From: Bacteroidales bacterium
GTDB taxonomy: Bacteria; Bacteroidota; Bacteroidia; Bacteroidales; P3
NCBI GenBank assembly: GCA_022482545.1
Contig: JAKVOZ010000001.1
Location: forward strand, 1 to 64,000
Direction of reading: 5' to 3'
Length of the DNA: 64,000 bases
A model generated the notes under the pieces. It was given only the letters and a program-made list of their open reading frames with translations. It was not told the DNA's origin and made no database searches. Shown one piece after another: positions 14,143 through 58,075 of this stretch (its first letter is position 1; every line of letters starts with the position of its first letter). The translations under genes were made by a program, and so were the position numbers.

Positions 14143-14200
14143 AAACATATTTTATGTAAGTGATTTAAAATAAATAATTAATTAAAAAAATAAAAAAATT

Positions 14201-30469: not shown

Positions 30470-33190
30470 ATGAAAAGAATTTATTACATATTAACATTAA
30501 TTATCTTCATCCTTGGTTTTCATCAAGCACAAGCACAAACATATAAGTTAAATGGCCGTAATGATGGGAAGATTATAAAAACATGTAGTGGCACATTTAC
30601 TGATGATCGTGGAGCTGATACTAATTATTCAAAAAACCAACATAGGATAATTACTTTTAAGTCAAATTCACCTAATTCAAAAATATCAATATATTTTAGT
30701 GAGTTTAATTTGTCTTGGGTGCTCTTTTGGGGAAATCCGAATTATGATTATATGAAAATATATCAAGGTCCAGATACATTATCATCTGTTGTACATAATA
30801 CAGACAGAAATACAGATTATTTTACTCAATATGATTTACAAGGCAAAACAATAACTCCAGATGCATCCAACACTTCAGGATGTATAACATTTAAATTCGT
30901 TGCTAAATATTGGGGAGATTCAGGGCCAGGTTGGAATGCAACGATAAGTTGTGAGCCAATAATTAGTTGTCAAACAATAAAAGCAAATATAACTAATTTT
31001 ATTAAGCATACTCCAAATGGAGATGTTACTTTGCCAGTAAAACAATTTTCTGAAACAATATCAGGGAATACTTATAATTATAATACAATAGATATATGTG
31101 AGGGTGATTCAATAGATATTATTGCTTCACCAAAATTTCCAGAAAATAACCAAGGATATGCACAATCTATTGATAGTTGTACTTATCATTGGTATTTTGG
31201 AGTTGGAGATACAATAACTCATTCAACAAACACTGTCGGATTTAGAGCAGTTAGAGCAAATGGATATAATGTTAATTTGTTAGTAGAAGATCAAAATCAT
31301 TGTACTGGATTAAATGATTCTACAAGAATTCGTATTGCTGCCGCACCAAAGTTTATTGATAAAAAACTAACAATATGCGAAGGAGATACTGCATCATTAG
31401 CAATTAAACCTTTCAATCTTTTAGATAGAGATACAATAGAACATAGTTATTTTGGACAACAAACATTCATTCCAGATGGAGGTAATTGTGGAGGTACAAA
31501 TGGATGTTATGAATCTCCAGTAACATTTACTCATTTTCCTGCTGGCTCAACAGTAAAAAGTGGTGCAGATATTCAATCAGTTTGTTTAAATATAGAGCAT
31601 TCTGCAATACAAGACTTAAAATTAGCTCTTATTTGTCCAAATGGACAACAAACTGTTTTGAAATATCATTCTCAAAATAATAATACAATATATGAGCAGG
31701 GAGAAAGTAATAATGAATTCCGAATATATTTAGGACAACCTAATTTAAATGATGCAACAACAGATGTATGTGATTCTTCTCAAAATCCTATGGGCGATTG
31801 TTGGCAATATTGTTGGTCTAATCAGTATCTTACAAATAGTAGAGGTGTTTTTAATCAAAATTGTACAGATAGGTATTTATTGCCTGGTAATAATTTCAAA
31901 ACAGCAGACTCTACTCACGTTTCTTTACAGAGTGGATATTTTCAAACTCCAATACAAGATTTAGATTATAGTACAAATGCAACAATTACTACTCAAACAA
32001 CATGGTGGGGACAACATTACTATACATATACAGGACATACTTTAAATGAAACAAGTGTAGTAGATTTAAATGGGTTTGATAAATTAATTGGTTGTCCATT
32101 AAACGGAGAATGGAAAATTCAAGTATGTGATGTTTATGCAACAGATAATGGTTGGGTTTGTAGTTGGGATATGAATGTTGCCAATGCTACATTAGTAGAT
32201 TGGAATTATAAAGTGCCGATAGTTTCAACAGCATGGAACTCACCGTTTGATAGCATACGAACAGATACAACATGTTTGATAATTCCGCCAGCAGATACCT
32301 CCGGAACATTTACTTTTAATACACATATATTAGATGAGTTTGGTTGTGTGTGGGATAGTTTGCAAACATTAACTATTGTAAAACTTCCAGATAAAAACTT
32401 ACAAGATACAACTTATGCTTGTTCAGGTAATCCAGTACAACTTGATGCTGGTAATGCAGGAACAGGCTATTCTTATTTATGGAAACCAACTAACAAAACA
32501 ACACAAACAATAGATACACGACAATTATTAGCCGGAACTTCAAAAGATTATATTGTAACAACAACGCATTCTCAAGCAGGCATACAATGTAAATCATCTG
32601 ATACTACAAAGGTTATAGCAATATATCCAACAACGAATGAATATAATGGAACGGCATGTCAAGGAAAAAGATATATTGAGAATGGATTTGATACCATATT
32701 TAATACAACAGCAGGTTCTCCATTTACAATAATAGATACGATCAAGTCAATAAAAACTCATTGTGATAGTATCATCAATATATTACATTTAACGGTCAAT
32801 CCGAAGATAAGTCAAGAAATAACGGCGACGATATGTGAGGGTAAGACATATAATGAGAATGGGTTTAATGAGACAGGAGTAGTAGGAAGTACGACAACAT
32901 ATACGCATACCGATCCATCAAAAGTAACAGGGTGTGATAGTACGACAACGTTAAGATTAACAGTCAATCCGAAGATAAGTCAAGAAATAACGGCGACGAT
33001 ATGTGAGGGTAAGACATATAATGAGAATGGGTTTAATGAGACAGGAGTAGTAGGAAGTACGACAACATATACGCATACCGATCCATCAAAAGTAACAGGG
33101 TGTGATAGTACGACAACGTTAAGATTAACGGTCAATCCGAAGATAAGTCAAGAAATAACAGCGACGATATGTGAGGGACAAGACATATAA
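30470..33190 (+). CDS. giant T9SS repeat adhesin, N-terminal part (to first frameshift)
   Basis: 906 codons as read. Signal peptide 1-22 (ending QAQA). Residues 39-161 form a CUB-like domain: CSGTFTDDRG at its start, IYFSEFNL and NYDYMKIYQGP in the middle, Cys161 at its end. About 175-290 is PKD/Ig-like (CTYHWYFGVGDT). About 345-580 matches a proprotein-convertase P-domain (IQDLKLALICPNG, GEWKIQVCDVYATDNGW). A further beta-sandwich stretch leads to the first 56-aa repeat at residue 776. The frame ends at a TAA (33188-33190) in the third repeat, after an extra base in gagggacaagaca. Without that base the frame continues. The product should be surface-exposed or bound to ligands through the CUB and P domains. 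Confidence 0.85.
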   Translation: MKRIYYILTLIIFILGFHQAQAQTYKLNGRNDGKIIKTCSGTFTDDRGADTNYSKNQHRIITFKSNSPNSKISIYFSEFNLSWVLFWGNPNYDYMKIYQGPDTLSSVVHNTDRNTDYFTQYDLQGKTITPDASNTSGCITFKFVAKYWGDSGPGWNATISCEPIISCQTIKANITNFIKHTPNGDVTLPVKQFSETISGNTYNYNTIDICEGDSIDIIASPKFPENNQGYAQSIDSCTYHWYFGVGDTITHSTNTVGFRAVRANGYNVNLLVEDQNHCTGLNDSTRIRIAAAPKFIDKKLTICEGDTASLAIKPFNLLDRDTIEHSYFGQQTFIPDGGNCGGTNGCYESPVTFTHFPAGSTVKSGADIQSVCLNIEHSAIQDLKLALICPNGQQTVLKYHSQNNNTIYEQGESNNEFRIYLGQPNLNDATTDVCDSSQNPMGDCWQYCWSNQYLTNSRGVFNQNCTDRYLLPGNNFKTADSTHVSLQSGYFQTPIQDLDYSTNATITTQTTWWGQHYYTYTGHTLNETSVVDLNGFDKLIGCPLNGEWKIQVCDVYATDNGWVCSWDMNVANATLVDWNYKVPIVSTAWNSPFDSIRTDTTCLIIPPADTSGTFTFNTHILDEFGCVWDSLQTLTIVKLPDKNLQDTTYACSGNPVQLDAGNAGTGYSYLWKPTNKTTQTIDTRQLLAGTSKDYIVTTTHSQAGIQCKSSDTTKVIAIYPTTNEYNGTACQGKRYIENGFDTIFNTTAGSPFTIIDTIKSIKTHCDSIINILHLTVNPKISQEITATICEGKTYNENGFNETGVVGSTTTYTHTDPSKVTGCDSTTTLRLTVNPKISQEITATICEGKTYNENGFNETGVVGSTTTYTHTDPSKVTGCDSTTTLRLTVNPKISQEITATICEGQDI

Positions 33191-36100
33191 TGAGAATGGG
33201 TTTAATGAGACAGGAGTAGTAGGAAGTACGACAACATATACGCATACCGATCCATCAAAAGTAACAGGGTGTGATAGTACGACAACGTTAAGATTAACAG
33301 GTCAATCCGAAGATAAGTCAAGAAATAACGGCGACGATATGTGAGGGTAAGACATATAATGAGAATGGGTTTAATGAGACAGGAGTAGTAGGAAGTACGA
33401 CAACATATACGCATACCGATCCATCAAAAGTAACAGGGTGTGATAGTACGACAACGTTAAGATTAACGGTCAATCCGAAGATAAGTCAAGAGATAACAGC
33501 TACGATATGTGAAGGACAAACGTATAATGAGAATGGGTTTAATGAGACAGGAGTAGTAGGAAGTACGACAACATATACGCATACCGATCCATCAAAAGTA
33601 ACAGGGTGTGATAGTACGACAACGTTAAGATTAACGGTCAATCCGAAGATAAGTCAAGAAATAACGGCGACGATATGTGAGGGTAAGACATATAATGAGA
33701 ATGGGTTTAATGAGACAGGAGTAGTAGGAAGTACGACAACATATACGCATACCGATCCATCAAAAGTAACAGGGTGTGATAGTACGACAACGTTAAGATT
33801 AACGGTCAATCCGAAGATAAGTCAAGAGATAACAGCTACGATATGTGAGGGTAAGACATATAATGAGAATGGGTTTAATGAGACAGGAGTAGTAGGAAGT
33901 ACGACAACATATACGCATACCGATCCATCAAAAGTAACAGGGTGTGATAGTACGACAACGTTAAGATTAACGGTCAATCCGAAGATAAGTCAAGAAATAA
34001 CGGCGACGATATGTGAAGGACAAACGTATAAAGAGAATGGGTTTAATGAGACAGGAGTAGTAGGAAGTACGACAACATATACGCATACCGATCCATCAAA
34101 AGTAACAGGGTGTGATAGTACGACAACGTTAAGATTAACGGTCAATCCGAAGATAAGTCAAGAAATAACGGCGACGATATGTGAGGGTAAGACATATAAT
34201 GAGAATGGGTTTAATGAGACAGGAGTAGTAGGAAGTACGACAACATATACGCATACCGATCCATCAAAAGTAACAGGGTGTGATAGTACGACAACGTTAA
34301 GATTAACGGTCAATCCGAAGATAAGTCAAGAAATAACGGCGACGATATGTGAGGGTAAGACATATAATGAGAATGGGTTTAATGAGACAGGAGTAGTAGG
34401 AAGTACGACAACATATACGCATACCGATCCATCAAAAGTAACAGGGTGTGATAGTACGACAACGTTAAGATTAACGGTCAATCCGAAGATAAGTCAAGAA
34501 ATAACGGCGACGATATGTGAGGGTAAGACATATAATGAGAATGGGTTTAATGAGACAGGAGTAGTAGGAAGTACGACAACATATACGCATACCGATCCAT
34601 CAAAAGTAACAGGGTGTGATAGTACGACAACGTTAAGATTAACAGTCAATCCGAAGATAAGTCAAGAAATAACGGCGACGATATGTGAGGGTAAGACATA
34701 TAATGAGAATGGGTTTAATGAGACAGGAGTAGTAGGAAGTACGACAACATATACGCATACCGATCCATCAAAAGTAACAGGGTGTGATAGTACGACAACG
34801 TTAAGATTAACGGTCAATCCGAAGATAAGTCAAGAGATAACAGCTACGATATGTGAAGGACAAACGTATAATGAGAATGGGTTTAATGAGACAGGAGTAG
34901 TAGGAAGTACGACAACATATACGCATACCGATCCATCAAAAGTAACAGGGTGTGATAGTACGACAACGTTAAGATTAACGGTCAATCCGAAGATAAGTCA
35001 AGAAATAACGGCGACGATATGTGAGGGTAAGACATATAATGAGAATGGGTTTAATGAGACAGGAGTAGTAGGAAGTACGACAACATATACGCATACCGAT
35101 CCATCAAAAGTAACAGGGTGTGATAGTACGACAACGTTAAGATTAACGGTCAATCCGAAGATAAGTCAAGAGATAACAGCTACGATATGTGAGGGTAAGA
35201 CATATAATGAGAATGGGTTTAATGAGACAGGAGTAGTAGGAAGTACGACAACATATACGCATACCGATCCATCAAAAGTAACAGGGTGTGATAGTACGAC
35301 AACGTTAAGATTAACGGTCAATCCGAAGATAAGTCAAGAAATAACGGCGACGATATGTGAAGGACAAACGTATAAAGAGAATGGGTTTAATGAGACAGGA
35401 GTAGTAGGAAGTACGACAACATATACGCATACCGATCCATCAAAAGTAACAGGGTGTGATAGTACGACAACGTTAAGATTAACGGTCAATCCGAAGATAA
35501 GTCAAGAAATAACGGCGACGATATGTGAGGGTAAGACATATAATGAGAATGGGTTTAATGAGAATGGAGTAGTAGGAAGTACGACAACATATACGCATAC
35601 CGATCCATCAAAAGTAACAGGGTGTGATAGTACGACAACGTTAAGATTAACAGTCAATCCGAAGATAAGTCAAGAAATAACGGCGACGATATGTGAAGGA
35701 CAAACGTATAAAGAGAATGGGTTTAATGAGACAGGAGTAGTAGGAAGTACGACAACATATACGCATACCGATCCATCAAAAGTAACAGGGTGTGATAGTA
35801 CGACAACGTTAAGATTAACGGTCAATCCGAAGATAAGTCAAGAAATAACGGCGACGATATGTGAGGGTAAGACATATAATGAGAATGGGTTTAATGAGAC
35901 AGGAGTAGTAGGAAGTACGACAACATATACGCATACCGATCCATCGAAAGTAACAGGGTGTGATAGTACGACAACGTTAAGATTAACGGTCAATCCGAAG
36001 ATAAGTCAAGAAATAACGGCGACGATATGTGAGGGTAAGACATATAATGAGAATGGGTTTAATGAGACAGGAGTAGTAGGAAGTACGACAACATATACGC

Positions 36101-39100
36101 ATACCGATCCATCAAAAGTAACAGGGTGTGATAGTACGACAACGTTAAGATTAACAGTCAATCCGAAGATAAGTCAAGAGATAACAGCTACGATATGTGA
36201 AGGACAAACGTATAAAGAGAATGGGTTTAATGAGAATGGAGTAGTAGGAAGTACGACAACATATACGCATACCGATCCATCAAAAGTAACAGGGTGTGAT
36301 AGTACGACGACGTTAAGATTAACGGTCAATCCGAAGATAAGTCAAGAAATAACGGCGACGATATGTGAGGGTAAGACATATAATGAGAATGGGTTTAATG
36401 AGACAGGAGTAGTAGGAAGTACGACAACATATACGCATACCGATCCATCAAAAGTAACAGGGTGTGATAGTACGACAACGTTAAGATTAACGGTCAATCC
36501 GAAGATAAGTCAAGAAATAACGGCGACGATATGTGAGGGTAAGACATATAATGAGAATGGGTTTAATGAGACAGGAGTAGTAGGAAGTACGACAACATAT
36601 ACGCATACCGATCCATCAAAAGTAACAGGGTGTGATAGTACGACAACGTTAAGATTAACGGTCAATCCGAAGATAAGTCAAGAAATAACGGCGACGATAT
36701 GTGAGGGTAAGACATATAATGAGAATGGGTTTAATGAGACAGGAGTAGTAGGAAGTACGACAACATATACGCATACCGATCCATCAAAAGTAACAGGGTG
36801 TGATAGTACGACAACGTTAAGATTAACGGTCAATCCGAAGATAAGTCAAGAGATAACAGCTACGATATGTGAAGGACAAACGTATAAAGAGAATGGGTTT
36901 AATGAGAATGGAGTAGTAGGAAGTACGACAACATATACGCATACCGATCCATCAAAAGTAACAGGGTGTGATAGTACGACAACGTTAAGATTAACGGTCA
37001 ATCCGAAGATAAGTCAAGAAATAACGGCGACGATATGTGAGGGTAAGACATATAATGAGAATGGGTTTAATGAGACAGGAGTAGTAGGAAGTACGACAAC
37101 ATATACGCATACCGATCCATCAAAAGTAACAGGGTGTGATAGTACGACAACGTTAAGATTAACAGTCAATCCGAAGATAAGTCAAGAGATAACGGCGACG
37201 ATATGTGAGGGTAAGACATATAATGAGAATGGGTTTAATGAGACAGGAGTAGTAGGAAGTACGACAACATATACGCATACCGATCCATCAAAAGTAACAG
37301 GGTGTGATAGTACGACAACGTTAAGATTAACGGTCAATCCGAAGATAAGTCAAGAAATAACGGCGACGATATGTGAGGGTAAGACATATAATGAGAATGG
37401 GTTTAATGAGACAGGAGTAGTAGGAAGTACGACAACATATACGCATACCGATCCATCAAAAGTAACAGGGTGTGATAGTACGACAACGTTAAGATTAACG
37501 GTCAATCCGAAGATAAGTCAAGAGATAACAGCTACGATATGTGAGGGTAAGACATATAATGAGAATGGGTTTAATGAGACAGGAGTAGTAGGAAGTACGA
37601 CAACATATACGCATACCGATCCATCAAAAGTAACAGGGTGTGATAGTACGACAACGTTAAGATTAACAGTCAATCCGAAGATAAGTCAAGAAATAACGGC
37701 GACGATATGTGAGGGTAAGACATATAATGAGAATGGGTTTAATGAGACAGGAGTAGTAGGAAGTACGACAACATATACGCATACCGATCCATCAAAAGTA
37801 ACAGGGTGTGATAGTACGACAACGTTAAGATTAACAGTCAATCCGAAGATAAGTCAAGAAATAACGGCGACGATATGTGAGGGTAAGACATATAATGAGA
37901 ATGGGTTTAATGAGACAGGAGTAGTAGGAAGTACGACAACATATACGCATACCGATCCATCAAAAGTAACAGGGTGTGATAGTACGACAACGTTAAGATT
38001 AACAGTCAATCCGAAGATAAGTCAAGAGATAACAGCTACGATATGTGAAGGACAAACGTATAATGAGAATGGGTTTAATGAGAATGGAGTAGTAGGAAGT
38101 ACGACAACATATACGCATACCGATCCATCAAAAGTAACAGGGTGTGATAGTACGACAACGTTAAGATTAACAGTCAATCCGAAGATAAGTCAAGAGATAA
38201 CAGCTACGATATGTGAAGGACAAACGTATAAAGAGAATGGGTTTAATGAGAATGGAGTAGTAGGAAGTACGACAACATATACGCATACCGATCCATCAAA
38301 AGTAACAGGGTGTGATAGTACGACAACGTTAAGATTAACAGTCAATCCGAAGATAAGTCAAGAGATAACAGCTACGATATGTGAAGGACAAACGTATAAT
38401 GAGAATGGGTTTAATGAGAATGGAGTAGTAGGAAGTACGACAACATATACGCATACCGATCCATCAAAAGTAACAGGGTGTGATAGTACGACGACGTTAA
38501 GATTAACGGTCAATCCGAAGATAAGTCAAGAAATAACGGCGACGATATGTGAAGGACAAACGTATAAAGAGAATGGGTTTAATGAGACAGGAGTAGTAGG
38601 AAGTACGACAACATATACGCATACCGATCCATCAAAAGTAACAGGGTGTGATAGTACGACGACGTTAAGATTAACGGTCAATCCGAAGATAAGTCAAGAA
38701 ATAACGGCGACGATATGTGAGGGTAAGACATATAATGAGAATGGGTTTAATGAGACAGGAGTAGTAGGAAGTACGACAACATATACGCATACCGATCCAT
38801 CAAAAGTAACAGGGTGTGATAGTACGACAACGTTAAGATTAACGGTCAATCCGAAGATAAGTCAAGAAATAACGGCGACGATATGTGAGGGTAAGACATA
38901 TAATGAGAATGGGTTTAATGAGACAGGAGTAGTAGGAAGTACGACAACATATACGCATACCGATCCATCAAAAGTAACAGGGTGTGATAGTACGACAACG
39001 TTAAGATTAACAGTCAATCCGAAGATAAGTCAAGAAATAACGGCGACGATATGTGAGGGTAAGACATATAATGAGAATGGGTTTAATGAGACAGGAGTAG

Positions 39101-48100: not shown

Positions 48101-50772
48101 GTCAAGAAATAACGGCGACGATATGTGAGGGTAAGACATATAATGAGAATGGGTTTAATGAGAATGGAGTAGTAGGAAGTACGACAACATATACGCATAC
48201 CGATCCATCAAAAGTAACAGGGTGTGATAGTACGACAACGTTAAGATTAACGGTCAATCCGAAGATAAGTCAAGAAATAACGGCGACGATATGTGAGGGT
48301 AAGACATATAATGAGAATGGGTTTAATGAGAATGGAGTAGTAGGAAGTACGACAACATATACGCATACCGATCCATCAAAAGTAACAGGGTGTGATAGTA
48401 CGACAACGTTAAGATTAACGGTCAATCCGAAGATAAGTCAAGAAATAACGGCGACGATATGTGAGGGTAAGACATATAATGAGAATGGGTTTAATGAGAC
48501 AGGAGTAGTAGGAAGTACGACAACATATACGCATACCGATCCATCAAAAGTAACAGGGTGTGATAGTACGACAACGTTAAGATTAACGGTCAATCCGAAG
48601 ATAAGTCAAGAAATAACGGCGACGATATGTGAGGGTAAGACATATAATGAGAATGGGTTTAATGAGAATGGAGTAGTAGGAAGTACGACAACATATACGC
48701 ATACCGATCCATCAAAAGTAACAGGGTGTGATAGTACGACAACGTTAAGATTAACGGTCAATCCGAAGATAAGTCAAGAAATAACGGCGACGATATGTGA
48801 GGGTAAGACATATAATGAGAATGGGTTTAATGAGACAGGAGTAGTAGGAAGTACGACAACATATACGCATACCGATCCATCAAAAGTAACAGGGTGTGAT
48901 AGTACGACAACGTTAAGATTAACGGTCAATCCGAAGATAAGTCAAGAAATAACGGCGACGATATGTGAGGGTAAGACATATAATGAGAATGGGTTTAATG
49001 AGACAGGAGTAGTAGGAAGTACGACAACATATACGCATACCGATCCATCAAAAGTAACAGGGTGTGATAGTACGACAACGTTAAGATTAACAGTCAATCC
49101 GAAGATAAGTCAAGAGATAACAGCTACGATATGTGAAGGACAAACGTATAAAGAGAATGGGTTTAATGAGAATGGAGTAGTAGGAAGTACGACAACATAT
49201 ACGCATACCGATCCATCAAAAGTAACAGGGTGTGATAGTACGACAACGTTGAGATTAACAGTCAATCCGAAGATAAGTCAAGAAATAACGGCGACGATAT
49301 GTGAGGGTAAGACATATAATGAGAATGGGTTTAATGAGACAGGAGTAGTAGGAAGTACGACAACATATACGCATACCGATCCATCAAAAGTAACAGGGTG
49401 TGATAGTACGACAACGTTAAGATTAACGGTCAATCCGAAGATAAGTCAAGAAATAACGGCGACGATATGTGAGGGTAAGACATATAATGAGAATGGGTTT
49501 AATGAGAATGGAGTAGTAGGAAGTACGACAACATATACGCATACCGATCCATCAAAAGTAACAGGGTGTGATAGTACGACAACGTTAAGATTAACAGTCA
49601 ATCCGAAGATAAGTCAAGAAATAACGGCGACGATATGTGAGGGTAAGACATATAATGAGAATGGGTTTAATGAGACAGGAGTAGTAGGAAGTACGACAAC
49701 ATATACGCATACCGATCCATCAAAAGTAACAGGGTGTGATAGTACGACAACGTTAAGATTAACGGTCAATCCGAAGATAAGTCAAGAGATAACAGCTACG
49801 ATATGTGAAGGACAAACGTATAAAGAGAATGGGTTTAATGAGAATGGAGTAGTAGGAAGTACGACAACATATACGCATACCGATCCATCAAAAGTAACAG
49901 GGTGTGATAGTACGACAACGTTAAGATTAACAGTCAATCCGAAGATAAGTCAAGAAATAACGGCGACGATATGTGAAGGACAAACGTATAATGAGAATGG
50001 GTTTAATGAGACAGGAGTAGTAGGAAGTACGACAACATATACGCATACCGATCCATCAAAAGTAACAGGGTGTGATAGTACGACAACGTTAAGATTAACG
50101 GTCAATCCGAAGATAAGTCAAGAAATAACGGCGACGATATGTGAGGGTAAGACATATAATGAGAATGGGTTTAATGAGAATGGAGTAGTAGGAAGTACGA
50201 CAACATATACGCATACCGATCCATCAAAAGTAACAGGGTGTGATAGTACGACAACGTTAAGATTAACGGTCAATCCGAAGATAAGTCAAGAAATAACGGC
50301 GACGATATGTGAGGGTAAGACGTATAAAGAGAATGGGTTTAATGAGAATGGAGTAGTAGGAAGTACGACAACATATACGCATACCGATCCATCAAAAGTA
50401 ACAGGGTGTGATAGTACGACAACGTTAAGATTAACAGTCAATCCGAAGATAAGTCAAGAAATAACGGCGACGATATGTGAGGGTAAGACATATAATGAGA
50501 ATGGGTTTAATGAGACAGGAGTAGTAGGAAGTACGACAACATATACGCATACCGATCCATCAAAAGTAACAGGGTGTGATAGTACGACAACGTTAAGATT
50601 AACGGTCAATCCGAAGATAAGTCAAGAAATAACGGCGACGATATGTGAGGGTAAGACATATAATGAGAATGGGTTTAATGAGACAGGAGTAGTAGGAAGT
50701 ACGACAACATATACGCATACCGATCCATCAAAAGTAACAGGGTGTGATAGTACGACAACGTTAAGATTAACG
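32795..50772 (+). repeat. tandem array A: 107 copies of a 168-bp coding unit
   Basis: From 33301 the unit start gtcaatccg recurs at exact 168-base steps to 50773 without an indel; counting back to 32795 gives 107 copies (17,976 bases plus the two extra bases). Each encodes VNPKISQEITATICEG(K/Q)TY and on to GCDSTTTLRLT. Copies differ at a handful of positions: gaaataacggcgacg or gagataacagctacg; gggtaagacatataat or aggacaaacgtataa(a/t); gagacagga or gagaatgga; tcaaaa or tcgaaa; acaacg or acgacg; aacagtc or aacggtc. Confidence 0.93.
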
Positions 50773-53700
50773 GTCAATCCGAAGATAAGTCAAGAAATAA
50801 CGGCGACGATATGTGAAGGAAGCAGTTATATGTTTGGAGGAGTAGCAAGGACGAGTGCAGGAACATATGTAGATACAATACAGACAGTCAATGGATGTGA
50901 TAGTATAATAACATTAACATTGAGAGTCAATCCGACATATAACACGCCAATAGAGAAGACGATATGTGCAGGAAGCAGTTATGATTTTAATGGAAGAATA
51001 TTAACGAGTGCAGGAACATATGTAGATACAATACAGACAGTCAATGGATGTGATAGTATAATAACATTAACATTGAGAGTCAATCCGACATATAACACGC
51101 CAATAGAGAAGACGATATGTGCAGGAAGCAGTTATGATTTTAATGGAAGAATATTAACGAGTGCAGGAACATATGTAGATACAATACAGACAGTCAATGG
51201 ATGTGATAGTATAATAACATTAACATTGAGAGTCAATCCGACATATAACACGCCAATAGAGAAGACGATATGTGCAGGAAGCAGTTATGATTTTAATGGA
51301 AGAATATTAACGAGTGCAGGAACATATGTAGATACAATACAGACAGTCAATGGATGTGATAGTATAATAACATTAACATTGAGAGTCAATCCGACATATA
51401 ACACGCCAATAGAGAAGACGATATGTGCAGGAAGCAGTTATGATTTTAATGGAAGAATATTAACGAGTGCAGGAACATATGTAGATACAATACAGACAGT
51501 CAATGGATGTGATAGTATAATAACATTAACATTGAGAGTCAATCCGACATATAACACGCCAATAGAGAAGACGATATGTGCAGGAAGCAGTTATGATTTT
51601 AATGGAAGAATATTAACGAGTGCAGGAACATATGTAGATACAATACAGACAGTCAATGGATGTGATAGTATAATAACATTAACATTGAGAGTCAATCCGA
51701 CATATAACACGCCAATAGAGAAGACGATATGTGCAGGAAGCAGTTATGATTTTAATGGAAGAATATTAACGAGTGCAGGAACATATGTAGATACAATACA
51801 GACAGTCAATGGATGTGATAGTATAATAACATTAACATTGAGAGTCAATCCGACATATAACACGCCAATAGAGAAGACGATATGTGCAGGAAGCAGTTAT
51901 GATTTTAATGGAAGAATATTAACGAGTGCAGGAACATATGTAGATACAATACAGACAGTCAATGGATGTGATAGTATAATAACATTAACATTGAGAGTCA
52001 ATCCGACATATAACACGCCAATAGAGAAGACGATATGTGCAGGAAGCAGTTATGATTTTAATGGAAGAATATTAACGAGTGCAGGAACATATGTAGATAC
52101 AATACAGACAGTCAATGGATGTGATAGTATAATAACATTAACATTGAGAGTCAATCCGACATATAACACGCCAATAGAGAAGACGATATGTGCAGGAAGC
52201 AGTTATGATTTTAATGGAAGAATATTAACGAGTGCAGGAACATATGTAGATACAATACAGACAGTCAATGGATGTGATAGTATAATAACATTAACATTGA
52301 GAGTCAATCCGACATATAACACGCCAATAGAGAAGACGATATGTGCAGGAAGCAGTTATGATTTTAATGGAAGAATATTAACGAGTGCAGGAACATATGT
52401 AGATACAATACAGACAGTCAATGGATGTGATAGTATAATAACATTAACATTGAGAGTCAATCCGACATATAACACGCCAATAGAGAAGACGATATGTGCA
52501 GGAAGCAGTTATGATTTTAATGGAAGAATATTAACGAGTGCAGGAACATATGTAGATACAATACAGACAGTCAATGGATGTGATAGTATAATAACATTAA
52601 CATTGAGAGTCAATCCGACATATAACACGCCAATAGAGAAGACGATATGTGCAGGAAGCAGTTATGATTTTAATGGAAGAATATTAACGAGTGCAGGAAC
52701 ATATGTAGATACAATACAGACAGTCAATGGATGTGATAGTATAATAACATTAACATTGAGAGTCAATCCGACATATAACACGCCAATAGAGAAGACGATA
52801 TGTGCAGGAAGCAGTTATGATTTTAATGGAAGAATATTAACGAGTGCAGGAACATATGTAGATACAATACAGACAGTCAATGGATGTGATAGTATAATAA
52901 CATTAACATTGAGAGTCAATCCGACATATAACACGCCAATAGAGAAGACGATATGTGCAGGAAGCAGTTATGATTTTAATGGAAGAATATTAACGAGTGC
53001 AGGAACATATGTAGATACAATACAGACAGTCAATGGATGTGATAGTATAATAACATTAACATTGAGAGTCAATCCGACATATAACACGCCAATAGAGAAG
53101 ACGATATGTGCAGGAAGCAGTTATGATTTTAATGGAAGAATATTAACGAGTGCAGGAACATATGTAGATACAATACAGACAGTCAATGGATGTGATAGTA
53201 TAATAACATTAACATTGAGAGTCAATCCGACATATAACACGCCAATAGAGAAGACGATATGTGCAGGAAGCAGTTATGATTTTAATGGAAGAATATTAAC
53301 GAGTGCAGGAACATATGTAGATACAATACAGACAGTCAATGGATGTGATAGTATAATAACATTAACATTGAGAGTCAATCCGACATATAACACGCCAATA
53401 GAGAAGACGATATGTGCAGGAAGCAGTTATGATTTTAATGGAAGAATATTAACGAGTGCAGGAACATATGTAGATACAATACAGACAGTCAATGGATGTG
53501 ATAGTATAATAACATTAACATTGAGAGTCAATCCGACATATAACACGCCAATAGAGAAGACGATATGTGCAGGAAGCAGTTATGATTTTAATGGAAGAAT
53601 ATTAACGAGTGCAGGAACATATGTAGATACAATACAGACAGTCAATGGATGTGATAGTATAATAACATTAACATTGAGAGTCAATCCGACATATAACACG

Positions 53701-56700
53701 CCAATAGAGAAGACGATATGTGCAGGAAGCAGTTATGATTTTAATGGAAGAATATTAACGAGTGCAGGAACATATGTAGATACAATACAGACAGTCAATG
53801 GATGTGATAGTATAATAACATTAACATTGAGAGTCAATCCGACATATAACACGCCAATAGAGAAGACGATATGTGCAGGAAGCAGTTATGATTTTAATGG
53901 AAGAATATTAACGAGTGCAGGAACATATGTAGATACAATACAGACAGTCAATGGATGTGATAGTATAATAACATTAACATTGAGAGTCAATCCGACATAT
54001 AACACGCCAATAGAGAAGACGATATGTGCAGGAAGCAGTTATGATTTTAATGGAAGAATATTAACGAGTGCAGGAACATATGTAGATACAATACAGACAG
54101 TCAATGGATGTGATAGTATAATAACATTAACATTGAGAGTCAATCCGACATATAACACGCCAATAGAGAAGACGATATGTGCAGGAAGCAGTTATGATTT
54201 TAATGGAAGAATATTAACGAGTGCAGGAACATATGTAGATACAATACAGACAGTCAATGGATGTGATAGTATAATAACATTAACATTGAGAGTCAATCCG
54301 ACATATAACACGCCAATAGAGAAGACGATATGTGCAGGAAGCAGTTATGATTTTAATGGAAGAATATTAACGAGTGCAGGAACATATGTAGATACAATAC
54401 AGACAGTCAATGGATGTGATAGTATAATAACATTAACATTGAGAGTCAATCCGACATATAACACGCCAATAGAGAAGACGATATGTGCAGGAAGCAGTTA
54501 TGATTTTAATGGAAGAATATTAACGAGTGCAGGAACATATGTAGATACAATACAGACAGTCAATGGATGTGATAGTATAATAACATTAACATTGAGAGTC
54601 AATCCGACATATAACACGCCAATAGAGAAGACGATATGTGCAGGAAGCAGTTATGATTTTAATGGAAGAATATTAACGAGTGCAGGAACATATGTAGATA
54701 CAATACAGACAGTCAATGGATGTGATAGTATAATAACATTAACATTGAGAGTCAATCCGACATATAACACGCCAATAGAGAAGACGATATGTGCAGGAAG
54801 CAGTTATGATTTTAATGGAAGAATATTAACGAGTGCAGGAACATATGTAGATACAATACAGACAGTCAATGGATGTGATAGTATAATAACATTAACATTG
54901 AGAGTCAATCCGACATATAACACGCCAATAGAGAAGACGATATGTGCAGGAAGCAGTTATGATTTTAATGGAAGAATATTAACGAGTGCAGGAACATATG
55001 TAGATACAATACAGACAGTCAATGGATGTGATAGTATAATAACATTAACATTGAGAGTCAATCCGACATATAACACGCCAATAGAGAAGACGATATGTGC
55101 AGGAAGCAGTTATGATTTTAATGGAAGAATATTAACGAGTGCAGGAACATATGTAGATACAATACAGACAGTCAATGGATGTGATAGTATAATAACATTA
55201 ACATTGAGAGTCAATCCGACATATAACACGCCAATAGAGAAGACGATATGTGCAGGAAGCAGTTATATGTTTGGAGGAGTAGCAAGGACGAGTGCAGGAA
55301 CATATGTAGATACAATACAGACAGTCAATGGATGTGATAGTATAATAACATTAACATTGAAAGTTAATCCAAAAGCAACGACAACATTAGAAGCACAGAT
55401 ATGTGAAGGCGAGACATATACATTGAATGGATTTAATGAGAGTATAACAGGAATATATGAGCAGAGATTGCAGACATATCAAGGATGTGATAGTGTTGTA
55501 ACGTTGAACTTGACAGTTAATCCTAAATTGTATAGCAGTATAGATGCAAATATATGTGAAGGAACACGATATACAGATAATGGATTTGATACGACAGCAG
55601 AGGTAGGAACACATGCGATAGTAAGACAGTTACAATCATTAGAGACAGGGTGTGATAGTACAATAACGTTGAACTTAACAGTTAATCCAAAGCCAAGCAG
55701 AGAGATAAATGCACAGATATGCGAGGGAGAGACATATAATGAGAATGGATTTAATGAGAATGGAGTAGTGGGAAGTACGACAACATATACAAGAGATACA
55801 ATATCAGCGAAAGGATGTGAAGGAAAAGTAACATTACACTTAACAGTCAATCCAAAGAAGACGACAGAAGTATATGATACGATATGTGAAGGAGAAAGCA
55901 TAACATTTAATGGAAGTATATATAGCAATGAAGGCGAATATGAGTATCATGGACAGACAGTCAATGGGTGTGATAGTTTAGTAACATTACACTTAACAGT
56001 AAATCCAAAAGCAACGACAACATTAGAAGCACAGATATGTGAAGGCGAGACATATACATTGAATGGATTTAATGAGAGTATAACAGGAATATATGAGCAG
56101 AGATTGCAGACATATCAAGGATGTGATAGTGTTGTAACGTTGAACTTGACAGTTAATCCTAAATTGTATAGCAGTATAGATGCAAATATATGTGAAGGAA
56201 CACGATATACAGATAATGGATTTGATACGACAGCAGAGGTAGGAACACATGCGATAGTAAGACAGTTACAATCATTAGAGACAGGGTGTGATAGTACAAT
56301 AACGTTGAACTTAACAGTTAATCCAAAGCCAAGCAGAGAGATAAATGCACAGATATGCGAGGGAGAGACATATAATGAGAATGGATTTAATGAGAATGGA
56401 GTAGTGGGAAGTACGACAACATATACAAGAGATACAATATCAGCGAAAGGATGTGAAGGAAAAGTAACATTACACTTAACAGTCAATCCAAAGAAGACGA
56501 CAGAAGTATATGATACGATATGTGAAGGAGAAAGCATAACATTTAATGGAAGTATATATAGCAATGAAGGCGAATATGAGTATCATGGACAGACAGTCAA
56601 TGGGTGTGATAGTTTAGTAACATTACACTTAACAGTAAATCCAAAAGCAACGACAACATTAGAAGCACAGATATGTGAAGGCGAGACATATACATTGAAT

Positions 56701-58020
56701 GGATTTAATGAGAGTATAACAGGAATATATGAGCAGAGATTGCAGACATATCAAGGATGTGATAGTGTTGTAACGTTGAACTTGACAGTTAATCCTAAAT
56801 TGTATAGCAGTATAGATGCAAATATATGTGAAGGAACACGATATACCGATAATGGATTTGATACGACAGCAGAGGTAGGAACACATGCGATAGTAAGACA
56901 AATACAATCATTAGAGACAGGGTGTGATAGTACGATAACGTTGAACTTAACTGTTAAACCTAAAATAAGAGTTGAAATATATGATACAATATGTGAAGGA
57001 ACAAATATTGAATTCAATAATAATACATATGCAGTGGCAGGAGGTTATTCATATACAACTCAATCCGAAGTTACAGGATGTGATAGTACAACAACATTAC
57101 ATTTGTTCGTTAATCCAAGACAAAGAAGAGTAATAAATGCAATAATTAATCAAGGAGATGTTTATACAGAAAATGGATTTAATGAAAATATGACAGGAAC
57201 TTATGTTCATAATCTACAAACATATCAAGGATGTGATAGTATAGTAACATTGAATTTAATTGTTCATCCAGTATTTAGAGATACAATTAAAGCCGATATA
57301 TGTCAAGGAGAAGTATATACAGCCAAAGGATTTAATGCAACAACAACTGGAGTATATGTTAAGAATATAAAAAATCCAGAAGGACAAGATACGATATTGA
57401 CTCTTGAATTAACGGTTGACCCAACATATACTAAACATATAGAAACAAGTATATGTCAAGGAGATGAATATTATTTTAGTAATAAGGCGTTAAATAAGGC
57501 TGGTGTTTATTACGATACATTGCAGACGGTAAAAGGATGTGATAGTATAATTGTACTTAACTTAACGGTTACACCAAAATATAATGATACGATAACAGCA
57601 ACAATAAGTATTGGTGATAATTATATTGAGAATAACTTTAATGAGTCAATGCCAGGTACTTATACGCAATATTTACAAACAGTTAATGGCTGTGATAGTT
57701 TGGTAACATTGGTTTTGAGAAATAGTGAAGGAGTTGATATATACGTTCCTTCAGCATTTAATCCATCAGAACAAAATAGTAGTGATAATACATTCCATAT
57801 TATTACAGGATTACCAAATGCAAGAGTAAAGACCTTCAAGATAATGAATCGTTGGGGAACAGTAGTATTCTCAACAAGTGATATAAAACAGGGTTGGGAT
57901 GGAAAATATAAAGGTAAGTTATGTCCGCAAGGAGTTTATACATATTTCTTCTTGTATTATTTCAGCGACAACCCAGATGAAGTATTTAAGAAGGCAGGAG
58001 AGTTAATGCTATTATACTAA
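33298..58020 (+). CDS. giant T9SS repeat adhesin, downstream frame with type B sorting tail
   Basis: 8,240 codons, open from just after a TAA at 33295 to the stop at 58018-58020, with no ATG or GTG in frame through array A. The first in-frame start-like codon is a TTG at 49249, created by a single base change in one repeat, and is not a credible start. The segment holds nearly all repeats and the C-terminal domain: IYVPSAFNPSEQNSSDNTF, KTFKIMNRWGTVVFST, GWDGKYKG and CPQGVYTYFFLYYF, the gliding-motility-associated CHU_C domain that directs T9SS export and attachment. It is the continuation of the gene starting at 30470. Confidence 0.8.
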   Translation, partial: QVNPKISQEITATICEGKTYNENGFNETGVVGSTTTYTHTDPSKVTGCDSTTTLRLTVNPKISQEITATICEGQTYNENGFNETGVVGSTTTYTHTDPSKVTGCDSTTTLRLTVNPKISQEITATICEGKTYNENGFNETGVVGSTTTYTHTDPSKVTGCDSTTTLRLTVNPKISQEITATICEGKTYNENGFNETGVVGSTTTYTHTDPSKVTGCDSTTTLRLTVNPKISQEITATICEGQTYKENGFNETGVVGSTTTYTHTDPSKVTGCDSTTTLRLTVNPKISQEITATICEGKTYNENGFNETGVVGSTTTYTHTDPSKVTGCDSTTTLRLTVNPKISQEITATICEGKTYNENGFNETGVVGSTTTYTHTDPSKVTGCDSTTTLRLTVNPKISQEITATICEGKTYNENGFNETGVVGSTTTYTHTDPSKVTGCDSTTTLRLTVNPKISQEITATICEGKTYNENGFNETGVVGSTTTYTHTDPSKVTGCDSTTTLRLTVNPKISQEITATICEGQTYNENGFNETGVVGSTTTYTHTDPSKVTGCDSTTTLRLTVNPKISQEITATICEGKTYNENGFNETGVVGSTTTYTHTDPSKVTGCDSTTTLRLTVNPKISQEITATICEGKTYNENGFNETGVVGSTTTYTHTDPSKVTGCDSTTTLRLTVNPKISQEITATICEGQTYKENGFNETGVVGSTTTYTHTDPSKVTGCDSTTTLRLTVNPKISQEITATICEGKTYNENGFNENGVVGSTTTYTHTDPSKVTGCDSTTTLRLTVNPKISQEITATICEGQTYKENGFNETGVVGSTTTYTHTDPSKVTGCDSTTTLRLTVNPKISQEITATICEGKTYNENGFNETGVVGSTTTYTHTDPSKVTGCDSTTTLRLTVNPKISQEITATICEGKTYNENGFNETGVVGSTTTYTHTDPSKVTGCDSTTTLRLTVNPKISQEITATICEGQTYKENGFNENGVVGSTTTYTHTDPSKVTGCDSTTTLRLTVNPKISQEITATICEGKTYNENGFNETGVVGSTTTYTHTDPSKVTGCDSTTTLRLTVNPKISQEITATICEGKTYNENGFNETGVVGSTTTYTHTDPSKVTGCDSTTTLRLTVNPKISQEITATICEGKTYNENGFNETGVVGSTTTYTHTDPSKVTGCDSTTTLRLTVNPKISQEITATICEGQTYKENGFNENGVVGSTTTYTHTDPSKVTGCDSTTTLRLTVNPKISQEITATICEGKTYNENGFNETGVVGSTTTYTHTDPSKVTGCDSTTTLRLTVNPKISQEITATICEGKTYNENGFNETGVVGSTTTYTHTDPSKVTGCDSTTTLRLTVNPKISQEITATICEGKTYNENGFNETGVVGSTTTYTHTDPSKVTGCDSTTTLRLTVNPKISQEITATICEGKTYNENGFNETGVVGSTTTYTHTDPSKVTGCDSTTTLRLTVNPKISQEITATICEGKTYNENGFNETGVVGSTTTYTHTDPSKVTGCDSTTTLRLTVNPKISQEITATICEGKTYNENGFNETGVVGSTTTYTHTDPSKVTGCDSTTTLRLTVNPKISQEITATICEGQTYNENGFNENGVVGSTTTYTHTDPSKVTGCDSTTTLRLTVNPKISQEITATICEGQTYKENGFNENGVVGSTTTYTHTDPSKVTGCDSTTTLRLTVNPKISQEITATICEGQTYNENGFNENGVVGSTTTYTHTDPSKVTGCDSTTTLRLTVNPKISQEITATICEGQTYKENGFNETGVVGSTTTYTHTDPSKVTGCDSTTTLRLTVNPKISQEITATICEGKTYNENGFNETGVVGSTTTYTHTDPSKVTGCDSTTTLRLTVNPKISQEITATICEGKTYNENGFNETGVVGSTTTYTHTDPSKVTGCDSTTTLRLTVNPKISQEITATICEGKTYNENGFNETGVVGSTTTYTHTDPSKVTGCDSTTTLRLTVNPKISQEITATICEGKTYNENGFNETGVVGSTTTYTHTDPSKVTGCDSTTTLRLTVNPKISQEITATICEGQTYKENGFNENGVVGSTTTYTHTDPSKVTGCDSTTTLRLTVNPKISQEITATICEGQTYKENGFNENGVVGSTTTYTHTDPSKVTGCDSTTTLRLTVNPKISQEITATICEGQTYKENGFNENGVVGSTTTYTHTDPSKVTGCDSTTTLRLTVNPKISQEITATICEGQTYKENGFNENGVVGSTTTYTHTDPSKVTGCDSTTTLRLTVNPKISQEITATICEGKTYNENGFNETGVVGSTTTYTHTDPSKVTGCDSTTTLRLTVNPKISQEITATICEGKTYNENGFNETGVVGSTTTYTHTDPSKVTGCDSTTTLRLTVNPKISQEITATICEGKTYNENGFNETGVVGSTTTYTHTDPSKVTGCDSTTTLRLTVNPKISQEITATICEGKTYNENGFNETGVVGSTTTYTHTDPSKVTGCDSTTTLRLTVNPKISQEITATICEGKTYNENGFNETGVVGSTTTYTHTDPSKVTGCDSTTTLRLTVNPKISQEITATICEGKTYNENGFNETGVVGSTTTYTHTDPSKVTGCDSTTTLRLTVNPKISQEITATICEGKTYNENGFNENGVVGSTTTYTHTDPSKVTGCDSTTTLRLTVNPKISQEITATICEGQTYKENGFNENGVVGSTTTYTHTDPSKVTGCDSTTTLRLTVNPKISQEITATICEGQTYNENGFNETGVVGSTTTYTHTDPSKVTGCDSTTTLRLTVNPKISQEITATICEGKTYNENGFNETGVVGSTTTYTHTDPSKVTGCDSTTTLRLTVNPKISQEITATICEGKTYNENGFNETGVVGSTTTYTHTDPSKVTGCDSTTTLRLTVNPKISQEITATICEGKTYNENGFNETGVVGSTTTYTHTDPSKVTGCDSTTTLRLTVNPKISQEITATICEGKTYNENGFNETGVVGSTTTYTHTDPSKVTGCDSTTTLRLTVNPKISQEITATICEGKTYNENGFNETGVVGSTTTYTHTDPSKVTGCDSTTTLRLTVNPKISQEITATICEGKTYNENGFNETGVVGSTTTYTHTDPSKVTGCDSTTTLRLTVNPKISQEITATICEGKTYNENGFNETGVVGSTTTYTHTDPSKVTGCDSTTTLRLTVNPKISQEITATICEGKTYNENGFNETGVVGSTTTYTHTDPSKVTGCDSTTTLRLTVNPKISQEITATICEGKTYNENGFNENGVVGSTTTYTHTDPSKVTGCDSTTTLRLTVNPKISQEITATICEGKTYNENGFNETGVVGSTTTYTHTDPSKVTGCDSTTTLRLTVNPKISQEITATICEGKTYNENGFNETGVVGSTTTYTHTDPSKVTGCDSTTTLRLTVNPKISQEITATICEGKTYNENGFNETGVVGSTTTYTHTDPSKVTGCDSTTTLRLTVNPKISQEITATICEGKTYNENGFNETGVVGSTTTYTHTDPSKVTGCDSTTTLRLTVNPKISQEITATICEGKTYNENGFNETGVVGSTTTYTHTDPSKVTGCDSTTTLRLTVNPKISQEITATICEGKTYNENGFNETGVVGSTTTYTHTDPSKVTGCDSTTTLRLTVNPKISQEITATICEGKTYNENGFNETGVVGSTTTYTHTDPSKVTGCDSTTTLRLTVNPKISQEITATICEGQTYNENGFNETGVVGSTTTYTHTDPSKVTGCDSTTTLRLTVNPKISQEITATICEGQTYKENGFNETGVVGSTTTYTHTDPSKVTGCDSTTTLRLTVNPKISQEITATICEGKTYNENGFNETGVVGSTTTYTHTDPSKVTGCDSTTTLRLTVNPKISQEITATICEGKTYNENGFNETGVVGSTTTYTHTDPSKVTGCDSTTTLRLTVNPKISQEITATICEGQTYKENGFNENGVVGSTTTYTHTDPSKVTGCDSTTTLRLTVNPKISQEITATICEGQTYKENGFNETGVVGSTTTYTHTDPSKVTGCDSTTTLRLTVNPKISQEITATICEGQTYKENGFNENGVVGSTTTYTHTDPSKVTGCDSTTTLRLTVNPKISQEITATICEGKTYNENGFNETGVVGSTTTYTHTDPSKVTGCDSTTTLRLTVNPKISQEITATICEGKTYNENGFNETGVVGSTTTYTHTDPSKVTGCDSTTTLRLTVNPKISQEITATICEGKTYNENGFNENGVVGSTTTYTHTDPSKVTGCDSTTTLRLTVNPKISQEITATICEGKTYNENGFNETGVVGSTTTYTHTDPSKVTGCDSTTTLRLTVNPKISQEITATICEGKTYNENGFNETGVVGSTTTYTHTDPSKVTGCDSTTTLRLTVNPKISQEITATICEGKTYNENGFNETGVVGSTTTYTHTDPSKVTGCDSTTTLRLTVNPKISQEITATICEGKTYNENGFNETGVVGSTTTYTHTDPSKVTGCDSTTTLRLTVNPKISQEITATICEGKTYNENGFNETGVVGSTTTYTHTDPSKVTGCDSTTTLRLTVNPKISQEITATICEGKTYNENGFNETGVVGSTTTYTHTDPSKVTGCDSTTTLRLTVNPKISQEITATICEGKTYNENGFNENGVVGSTTTYTHTDPSKVTGCDSTTTLRLTVNPKISQEITATICEGKTYNENGFNETGVVGSTTTYTHTDPSKVTGCDSTTTLRLTVNPKISQEITATICEGQTYKENGFNETGVVGSTTTYTHTDPSKVTGCDSTTTLRLTVNPKISQEITATICEGKTYNENGFNETGVVGSTTTYTHTDPSKVTGCDSTTTLRLTVNPKISQEITATICEGKTYNENGFNETGVVGSTTTYTHTDPSKVTGCDSTTTLRLTVNPKISQEITATICEGQTYKENGFNENGVVGSTTTYTHTDPSKVTGCDSTTTLRLTVNPKISQEITATICEGKTYNENGFNETGVVGSTTTYTHTDPSKVTGCDSTTTLRLTVNPKISQEITATICEGKTYNENGFNENGVVGSTTTYTHTDPSKVTGCDSTTTLRLTVNPKISQEITATICEGKTYNENGFNENGVVGSTTTYTHTDPSKVTGCDSTTTLRLTVNPKISQEITATICEGKTYNENGFNETGVVGSTTTYTHTDPSKVTGCDSTTTLRLTVNPKISQEITATICEGKTYNENGFNENGVVGSTTTYTHTDPSKVTGCDSTTTLRLTVNPKISQEITATICEGKTYNENGFNETGVVGSTTTYTHTDPSKVTGCDSTTTLRLTVNPKISQEITATICEGKTYNENGFNETGVVGSTTTYTHTDPSKVTGCDSTTTLRLTVNPKISQEITATICEGQTYKENGFNENGVVGSTTTYTHTDPSKVTGCDSTTTLRLTVNPKISQEITATICEGKTYNENGFNETGVVGSTTTYTHTDPSKVTGCDSTTTLRLTVNPKISQEITATICEGKTYNENGFNENGVVGSTTTYTHTDPSKVTGCDSTTTLRLTVNPKISQEITATICEGKTYNENGFNETGVVGSTTTYTHTDPSKVTGCDSTTTLRLTVNPKISQEITATICEGQTYKENGFNENGVVGSTTTYTHTDPSKVTGCDSTTTLRLTVNPKISQEITATICEGQTYNENGFNETGVVGSTTTYTHTDPSKVTGCDSTTTLRLTVNPKISQEITATICEGKTYNENGFNENGVVGSTTTYTHTDPSKVTGCDSTTTLRLTVNPKISQEITATICEGKTYKENGFNENGVVGSTTTYTHTDPSKVTGCDSTTTLRLTVNPKISQEITATICEGKTYNENGFNETGVVGSTTTYTHTDPSKVTGCDSTTTLRLTVNPKISQEITATICEGKTYNENGFNETGVVGSTTTYTHTDPSKVTGCDSTTTLRLTVNPKISQEITATICEGSSYMFGGVARTSAGTYVDTIQTVNGCDSIITLTLRVNPTYNTPIEKTICAGSSYDFNGRILTSAGTYVDTIQTVNGCDSIITLTLRVNPTYNTPIEKTICAGSSYDFNGRILTSAGTYVDTIQTVNGCDSIITLTLRVNPTYNTPIEKTICAGSSYDFNGRILTSAGTYVDTIQTVNGCDSIITLTLRVNPTYNTPIEKTICAGSSYDFNGRILTSAGTYVDTIQTVNGCDSIITLTLRVNPTYNTPIEKTICAGSSYDFNGRILTSAGTYVDTIQTVNGCDSIITLTLRVNPTYNTPIEKTICAGSSYDFNGRILTSAGTYVDTIQTVNGCDSIITLTLRVNPTYNTPIEKTICAGSSYDFNGRILTSAGTYVDTIQTVNGCDSIITLTLRVNPTYNTPIEKTICAGSSYDFNGRILTSAGTYVDTIQTVNGCDSIITLTLRVNPTYNTPIEKTICAGSSYDFNGRILTSAGTYVDTIQTVNGCDSIITLTLRVNPTYNTPIEKTICAGSSYDFNGRILTSAGTYVDTIQTVNGCDSIITLTLRVNPTYNTPIEKTICAGSSYDFNGRILTSAGTYVDTIQTVNGCDSIITLTLRVNPTYNTPIEKTICAGSSYDFNGRILTSAGTYVDTIQTVNGCDSIITLTLRVNPTYNTPIEKTICAGSSYDFNGRILTSAGTYVDTIQTVNGCDSIITLTLRVNPTYNTPIEKTICAGSSYDFNGRILTSAGTYVDTIQTVNGCDSIITLTLRVNPTYNTPIEKTICAGSSYDFNGRILTSAGTYVDTIQTVNGCDSIITLTLRVNPTYNTPIEKTICAGSSYDFNGRILTSAGTYVDTIQTVNGCDSIITLTLRVNPTYNTPIEKTICAGSSYDFNGRILTSAGTYVDTIQTVNGCDSIITLTLRVNPTYNTPIEKTICAGSSYDFNGRILTSAGTYVDTIQTVNGCDSIITLTLRVNPTYNTPIEKTICAGSSYDFNGRILTSAGTYVDTIQTVNGCDSIITLTLRVNPTYNTPIEKTICAGSSYDFNGRILTSAGTYVDTIQTVNGCDSIITLTLRVNPTYNTPIEKTICAGSSYDFNGRILTSAGTYVDTIQTVNGCDSIITLTLRVNPTYNTPIEKTICAGSSYDFNGRILTSAGTYVDTIQTVNGCDSIITLTLRVNPTYNTPIEKTICAGSSYDFNGRILTSAGTYVDTIQTVNGCDSIITLTLRVNPTYNTPIEKTICAGSSYDFNGRILTSAGTYVDTIQTVNGCDSIITLTLRVNPTYNTPIEKTICAGSSYDFNGRILTSAGTYVDTIQTVNGCDSIITLTLRVNPTYNTPIEKTICAGSSYDFNGRILTSAGTYVDTIQTVNGCDSIITLTLRVNPTYNTPIEKTICAGSSYDFNGRILTSAGTYVDTIQTVNGCDSIITLTLRVNPTYNTPIEKTICAGSSYDFNGRILTSAGTYVDTIQTVNGCDSIITLTLRVNPTYNTPIEKTICAGSSYMFGGVARTSAGTYVDTIQTVNGCDSIITLTLKVNPKATTTLEAQICEGETYTLNGFNESITGIYEQRLQTYQGCDSVVTLNLTVNPKLYSSIDANICEGTRYTDNGFDTTAEVGTHAIVRQLQSLETGCDSTITLNLTVNPKPSREINAQICEGETYNENGFNENGVVGSTTTYTRDTISAKGCEGKVTLHLTVNPKKTTEVYDTICEGESITFNGSIYSNEGEYEYHGQTVNGCDSLVTLHLTVNPKATTTLEAQICEGETYTLNGFNESITGIYEQRLQTYQGCDSVVTLNLTVNPKLYSSIDANICEGTRYTDNGFDTTAEVGTHAIVRQLQSLETGCDSTITLNLTVNPKPSREINAQICEGETYNENGFNENGVVGSTTTYTRDTISAKGCEGKVTLHLTVNPKKTTEVYDTICEGESITFNGSIYSNEGEYEYHGQTVNGCDSLVTLHLTVNPKATTTLEAQICEGETYTLNGFNESITGIYEQRLQTYQGCDSVVTLNLTVNPKLYSSIDANICEGTRYTDNGFDTTAEVGTHAIVRQIQSLETGCDSTITLNLTVKPKIRVEIYDTICEGTNIEFNNNTYAVAGGYSYTTQSEVTGCDSTTTLHLFVNPRQRRVINAIINQGDVYTENGFNENMTGTYVHNLQTYQGCDSIVTLNLIVHPVFRDTIKADICQGEVYTAKGFNATTTGVYVKNIKNPEGQDTILTLELTVDPTYTKHIETSICQGDEYYFSNKALNKAGVYYDTLQTVKGCDSIIVLNLTVTPKYNDTITATISIGDNYIENNFNESMPGTYTQYLQTVNGCDSLVTLVLRNSEGVDIYVPSAFNPSEQNSSDNTFHIITGLPNARVKTFKIMNRWGTVVFSTSDIKQGWDGKYKGKLCPQGVYTYFFLYYFSDNPDEVFKKAGELMLLY
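50773..55362 (+). repeat. tandem array B: 30 copies of a 153-bp coding unit
   Basis: Thirty 51-aa units. The first (50773-50925) is a hybrid: array A start (VNPKISQEITATICEG) joined to SSYMFGGVARTSAG. Twenty-eight units with SSYDFNGRILTSAG follow from 50926 at exact 153-base steps; those I compared are identical base for base. The last (55210-55362) again has SSYMFGGVARTSAG. Such uniformity implies very recent expansion or strong homogenisation. Confidence 0.93.
55363..56952 (+). repeat. higher-order array C: 636-bp unit, two and a half copies
   Basis: Each 212-aa unit holds four related modules starting VNPKATTT, VNPKLYSS, VNPKPSRE and VNPKKTTE. Copies start at 55363, 55999 and 56635; the third has only the first two modules. 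Copies one and two are nearly identical; the third has small changes (accgat for acagat, agacaaata for agacagtta). The third module (TYNENGFNENGVVGSTTTYT) is clearly related to the array A unit. Confidence 0.9.
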
Positions 58021-58023
58021 ATG

Positions 58024-58075
58024 AAAAAGAATATCAATATTATGAAATGAAATAATATTGATATTCTTTTTTTAT
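58024..58075 (+). terminator. rho-independent terminator of the giant gene
   Basis: A 19-bp perfect stem (58024-58042 with 58053-58071), 10-base loop, then T-run. It begins 4 bases after the stop codon. Confidence 0.93.

Follow-up and report, generated by a model that had tools for sequence, protein, structure and literature searches.

Among the surface proteins described so far, the Periscope Proteins (Sgo_0707, SasG and Rib; PMC8201768) come closest to the architecture reported here: an N-terminal head is followed by tandem folded modules of very high DNA identity and by a C-terminal surface anchor, which in these proteins is an LPXTG cell-wall anchor. The survey of this group, which makes no mention of T9SS, recorded more than 40 repeats in one case and found that extreme repeat numbers accompany the highest repeat identity (PMC8201768). 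A 2021 survey of fibrillar adhesins counted from 1 to 73 stalk domains (PMC8286594). Among the type B substrates of T9SS, which are held at the cell surface by PorP-like proteins (PMC9143113, PMC12618676), SprB of Flavobacterium johnsoniae is a very large, repetitive chain of 6,497 aa (PMC9870892). Also secreted by T9SS are the heptameric GhpA hooks of Aureispira sp. CCB-QB1 (PMC11205867; PDB 9flp, 9flu and others), which are built as tandem beta-domain rods. Size alone is not new, given that UniProtKB holds more than 41,000 proteins above 5,000 aa (PMC11573180). So which of these systems does the giant gene described here resemble most closely?

The gene occupies positions 30470-58020 of the window, that is, of the entire 64,000-nucleotide stretch analysed, which covers the initial 64 kb of a contig of 271,878 bp in a 1.88-Mb, 23-contig, 94%-complete genome of a gut-type Bacteroidales bacterium; this and all features of the gene given below are on the forward (+) strand. 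We consider it fairly probable, albeit by no means assured, that the product of this locus is a single type B T9SS surface protein of ~9,180 residues that acts as a very long periscope stalk, and that this is probably an extreme T9SS periscope-like stalk of recent expansion. The giant protein has the head, the tandem modules and the C-terminal anchor of Periscope Proteins but differs from them in ending with a T9SS CHU_C tail and in the make-up of its stalk, which as assembled consists of about 153 repeats of mostly 51-56 aa as against '>40 in one case'. It conforms to the trend in the periscope survey, where the most extreme repeat numbers belong to the arrays of highest repeat identity. Provided that the array was assembled correctly, the repeat number is over three times the one called extreme in that survey (PMC8201768) and roughly double the maximum of 73 stalk domains in the fibrillar-adhesin survey (PMC8286594). 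The Periscope Proteins vary in length from strain to strain, whereas the giant protein is known here from one genome of its species.

The giant repetitive gene is genuine as anatomy, and the assembled sequence is split over two frames. The region is 27,551 nt long, which is not divisible by 3; ORF A (30470-33190, 906 aa) ends at a stop at 33188-33190, and ORF B (33298-58020, 8,240 aa) lies in a different frame that is open only from 33298. Reading across the break yields ~9,180 aa and ~0.98 MDa (~983 kDa). Thus, the single gene of ~27.5 kb that had been proposed in the sequence-only reading stands with respect to the anatomy but not as one continuous frame, and the single-gene view depends on the frame break being an assembly error. 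Frame B contains no stops in 8,240 codons, whereas either of the remaining two frames of the same strand has over 1,000, and the clean units vary at 15 columns, 12 synonymous and 3 replacement, with a per-site ratio of 0.075, an approximation that treats the sites as independent although several are linked. The open frame combined with the synonymous bias of the differences between units places coding far beyond chance.

The head begins with a Sec signal peptide (MKRIYYILTLIIFILGFHQAQA; 30470-30535) that was identified by inspection and is modelled as a helix (residues 2-18) followed by a beta domain; a tRNA-Met (CAT) gene, 30143-30217 (+), is located directly upstream. The CUB-like domain (residues ~24-163; 30539-30958) is indicated by a match of head profile positions 75-153 to the PCPE CUB (E 6.5e-4) and by Foldseek, which for the head model lists C1r CUB2 (6f1d, TMt 0.72) and neuropilin and cubilin CUBs. 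A PKD-like domain (residues ~214-291; 31109-31342) matches collagenase PKD structures over profile positions ~226-290 (E 6e-6), with the Pfam PKD match (E 0.0076) falling below the cut-off. There follow a P-domain-like region (residues ~325-572, Pfam core 371-405; 31442-32185) that is recognised by PF01483 (E 2e-8, 34.7 bits vs a cut-off of 21) and is conserved in 42 aligned rows, and beta-rich Ig/PKD-like domains that end the head (32186-32617; AlphaFold strands 584-718, pLDDT ~83-95) and are conserved among homologs. The CUB and P domains postulated at the N terminus are therefore borne out, the former by profile matches along with the PKD-like domain, and the signal peptide, the repeats, the CHU_C tail and the ~7,500 residues in arrays are likewise seen by sequence inspection, Pfam and repeat finding. 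By its domain content, the head appears ligand-binding-like, with binding itself a putative function, and an adhesion role of the giant protein is plausible.

The remainder of the chain consists of ~153 modules, namely, 107 with 56 aa each, 30 with 51 aa each and 16 divergent ones. A first, divergent module (32633-32788; CQGKRY...HCDSI...LTVNP, the motif found in the module alignment) leads into array 1 (32789-50772), 18 kb made of 107 tandem 168-bp units (107 copies by TRF, 97% identity). Array 2 (50773-55362) comprises 30 tandem 153-bp units (30 copies by TRF, 99% identity), 28 of which, that is, 4.3 kb, are 100% identical in DNA. Array 3 (55363-57567) has 14 divergent modules, partly organised in a 636-bp higher-order repeat with two full copies that differ by 1 mismatch. 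Array 1 contains 22 different DNA variants of its unit, which follow one another without periodicity, and displays mosaic alleles; a seven-unit block, AACBDAD, is repeated (p about 0.03 vs shuffles), and the unit types show no significant lag autocorrelation (lag 8, p 0.076). Since near-identical array DNA allows recombination, the length of the stalk is probably variable between strains.

The same near-identity raises the possibility that the repeat number is wrong, the arrays having been inflated or collapsed by the assembler, in which case the true protein would be much shorter or longer. Both the 28 identical units of array 2 and the 18 kb of array 1 are hard to assemble, and the likely consensus error in the third unit of array 1, discussed below, suggests mixed reads at that point. 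Conversely, the 22 variants in non-periodic order provide anchors for long reads. Collapse is the commoner error and would imply a true array longer than the assembled one. On balance, we regard a seriously wrong repeat number as rather unlikely.

The frame is broken within the third unit of array 1, the only one that is 170 bp long (33125-33294), whereas each of the other 106 is exactly 168 bp. Within the affected region (33125-33302), single-base length anomalies occur near 33176-33182 and 33294-33302, together with an odd allele pair at unit sites 36/39. In the 105 clean units, these two sites are G/G (83) or A/T (22) and nothing else; the 170-bp unit has A/G, a pair absent from all of them. 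At sites 51-60, the clean units carry GGGTAAGACA (77) or AGGACAAACG (26), plus two singletons, and the 170-bp unit carries the merged string GGGACAAGACA. Similarly, the unit that follows begins with TTAACAGGTCAA, whereas the others begin with TTAACGGTCA (76) or TTAACAGTCA (29). Thus, GGGACAAGACA and TTAACAGGTCAA each combine both unit alleles, and both extra bases as well as the third oddity (A36/G39) sit on sites that are variable among units. All three anomalies are as expected from a consensus of mixed unit types, and we read the break as an assembly error; judging from these strings, a consensus error in unit 3 is the most likely explanation.

Taken at face value, however, the assembly does present two frames, and the mosaic alleles and the repeated seven-unit block of array 1 are what recombination predicts. 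A real break would mean either that the gene is off or decaying and yields a 906-aa secreted, tailless head, or that it is phase-variable, in that recombination between identical units could remove the broken unit again. The uniform length of the other 106 units, the resemblance of the anomalies in the odd unit to merged alleles and the 8,240 open downstream codons with synonymous-biased differences all weigh against this scenario, the main alternative to an assembly error, which we find distinctly improbable.

Returning to the proposed single surface protein, its C terminus (57568-58020) contains the last module, a CHU_C type B T9SS sorting domain and the stop codon. The CHU_C tail is matched by PF13585 at 57745-57966 (38.4-44.4 bits, cut-off 27); TIGR04131 scores 32 bits on the tail, slightly below its 35-bit cut-off. 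A hairpin followed by a T-run, a likely terminator by inspection, is found at 58024-58075, and a 21-bp intergenic repeat in 7 copies (58129-58279) lies just downstream of the gene. Profile searches identified in the genome PorU, PorV, three members of the PorP family, GldK and a GldJ-like protein (455.8 bits, just below the cut-off of 458.2). Weighing against the proposed T9SS protein, SprA and GldM were not found in the 94%-complete assembly; among the relatives searched, GldM is present in 6 of 6 and SprA in 13 of 14. The GldK gene is truncated by the end of contig C14, so gldLMN is probably located in an assembly gap, and we assume the same for sprA. Taken together, the domain, fold and family evidence supports well the earlier view, in which a surface protein of T9SS type B bears its ligand-binding-like head on a very long repetitive stalk.

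The additional suggestion that the protein is comparable in idea to SprB is justified by the size and the tail but goes no further: the repeat is a different one, as the SprB repeat (PF13573) is absent in the Pfam scan of the head, arrays and tail; no PorP/SprF gene was found in the window or on its contig (C1), with all three matches on contigs C9, C11 and C14; and no test points to gliding. A mobile gliding adhesin of the SprB type, for which one could invoke the type B tail on a huge repetitive chain and the presence of the GldJ-like protein, is accordingly very unlikely; we know of no demonstration of gliding in these uncultured gut lineages. Homology to SprB is unsupported, and, by comparison of architectures, a periscope-type stalk of variable length appears to be the better analogue.

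What could be the structure of such a stalk? An AlphaFold model of four tandem modules is all beta (pLDDT 84.7, pTM 0.50), so the description of the repeats as beta-sandwich modules is roughly right insofar as the model is beta-rich with a pLDDT of 85; we predict tandem beta-rich domains. ORF B is 22% Thr, has no Trp and contains 296 Cys, two per typical module. With the module model, Foldseek retrieves tandem Ig-type rods, and the modules may form a rod, although a pTM of only 0.50 makes any rod geometry or rigidity tentative; the top five matches are all GhpA fragments from Aureispira (E 2.2e-7 to 1.3e-4). The sequence search of the module profiles against PDB chains gave no match, although a remote homology with GhpA is conceivable. 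As for Pfam and NCBIfam, the array hits to HicA, NuoB, RCC1, DUF4770 and others include no single passing stretch and were discarded as repetition artefacts; only PKD_5 (PF19406, as a sum over repeats) is plausible kin of the modules. That the protein is a grappling-hook-like appendage that catches other cells in the fashion of GhpA, the best fold match of the modules and itself secreted by T9SS (PMC11205867), is highly doubtful given that the modules match no PDB chain by sequence and that the VIA alignment of the module model with GhpA is middling (Z 5-5.7, rmsd 7-8 A) and may reflect a mere tandem Ig rod. GhpA is known as a heptamer and hook, whereas the giant protein is known from sequence and model, and we take the likeness to be one of shared design rather than membership.

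Under the periscope-type hypothesis, the chain would be exported by Sec, after which T9SS would recognise the CHU_C tail and pass the chain across the outer membrane, and a PorP-like protein would hold the tail at the cell surface. The beta modules, each with two cysteines capable of forming a disulfide, would line up as a rod, whose length would come to very roughly 0.4-0.6 um if 3-4 nm per module is assumed. The rod would hold the head away from the cell, where it would bind a ligand, be it a glycan or one from the host, a feed particle or a partner cell. The near-identity of the module DNA would let the array grow, shrink and homogenise via recombination. If the array is as assembled, the handling by T9SS of a ~1-MDa substrate with ~2 cysteines per module becomes testable, and the question arises of how homogenised arrays keep frame.

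The provenance of the array can be approached through the relatives of the head, which is present in 40 of the 61 genomes searched, its own included. A search of named genomes produced 550 candidate stretches, of which 80 were kept as relatives (L069-L148); almost all come from Bacteroidales or Bacteroidota that are uncultured, many of them gut bacteria of ruminants, horses or other hosts, and the carriers include a member of the same genus, Candidatus Scybalousia scybalohippi (a contig of G007). These relatives and a paralog in the same genome share the CUB/PKD/P-domain/Ig head (~26-45% identity) and end in a T9SS sorting tail, which is CHU_C in most cases, but nearly all are proteins of ~860-1,900 aa that lack modules. 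Only 4 of the 80 have any, namely, L084, L120 and L145 with 6-7, and L085 with 13, a count from a protein cut at the contig start, so that between species the heads carry 0-13 modules compared to about 153 here. The paralog (L056:7135-10080) is a 981-aa protein on the same contig with the same head and 0 modules. Another protein of the genome, L057 (2,233 aa), closely resembles the giant protein in its CHU_C tail and has ~35 modules of the CxG...GCDS type but differs in its LRR-like N-terminus, its divergent modules and the lack of a near-identical array. In the tree, the diverged head of the giant protein is placed on a long branch beside the module-free paralog lineage of its genus, apart from L084, L120 and L145. 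A common origin of all module-bearing heads, which we considered, is not what this topology shows, but the AU test does not reject a single clade (p-AU 0.108) and the branch is long. These sequence comparisons suggest that head and array were joined separately in this lineage, by a graft of the head onto the array.

At E 1e-3, the module was found in 136 of the 149 family genomes; at E 1e-16, a strict threshold that leaves room for weaker relatives, it was found in its own genome only among 247 genomes of the phylum. The longest other frames inspected span 3,760 aa with 19 modules and 3,659 aa with 35. Furthermore, at least nine contigs (L149-L157) from six other family genomes (G061, G067, G092, G074, G007 and G027) have a CxG...GCDS module within ~250 nt of the contig end in a frame that runs open off the contig; these contigs were picked from the family module search for their terminal look and do not represent a rate. 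The DNA identity of adjacent units reaches 0.92-0.93 at the contig ends of G061 and G027. From this pattern, assembly breaks seem to conceal additional long arrays and, if the giant array is as assembled, perhaps an entire group of very long surface fibres in herbivore-gut Bacteroidales. A broader generalisation, which we offer tentatively and would not yet call likely, is that T9SS stalks in this gut family, in which a conserved head is joined to a shared module array, expand fast by recombination to megadalton size, with most of them missed in short-read genomes.

Several other genes in the window deserve mention. At 59020-60452 (-), an ECF sigma factor is encoded next to a protein of 291 aa that has a likely transmembrane segment and whose CHU_C tail is the best match in the genome (80.6 bits); this protein, present at full length in at least 11 genomes of the same genus, resembles an anti-sigma factor that ends in a T9SS type B tail. 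A fusion of a MATE transporter with an M23 peptidase (4779-7820, -; 1,013 aa) is full-length in eight genomes of the same genus (57-61% identity) and interrupted in G005, and in G010/G011, as in other families, the two parts occupy ORFs of their own. Finally, two tandem paralogs with near-identical N-termini are located at 13003-15328 (+), and the first of these has a T9SS type A tail.
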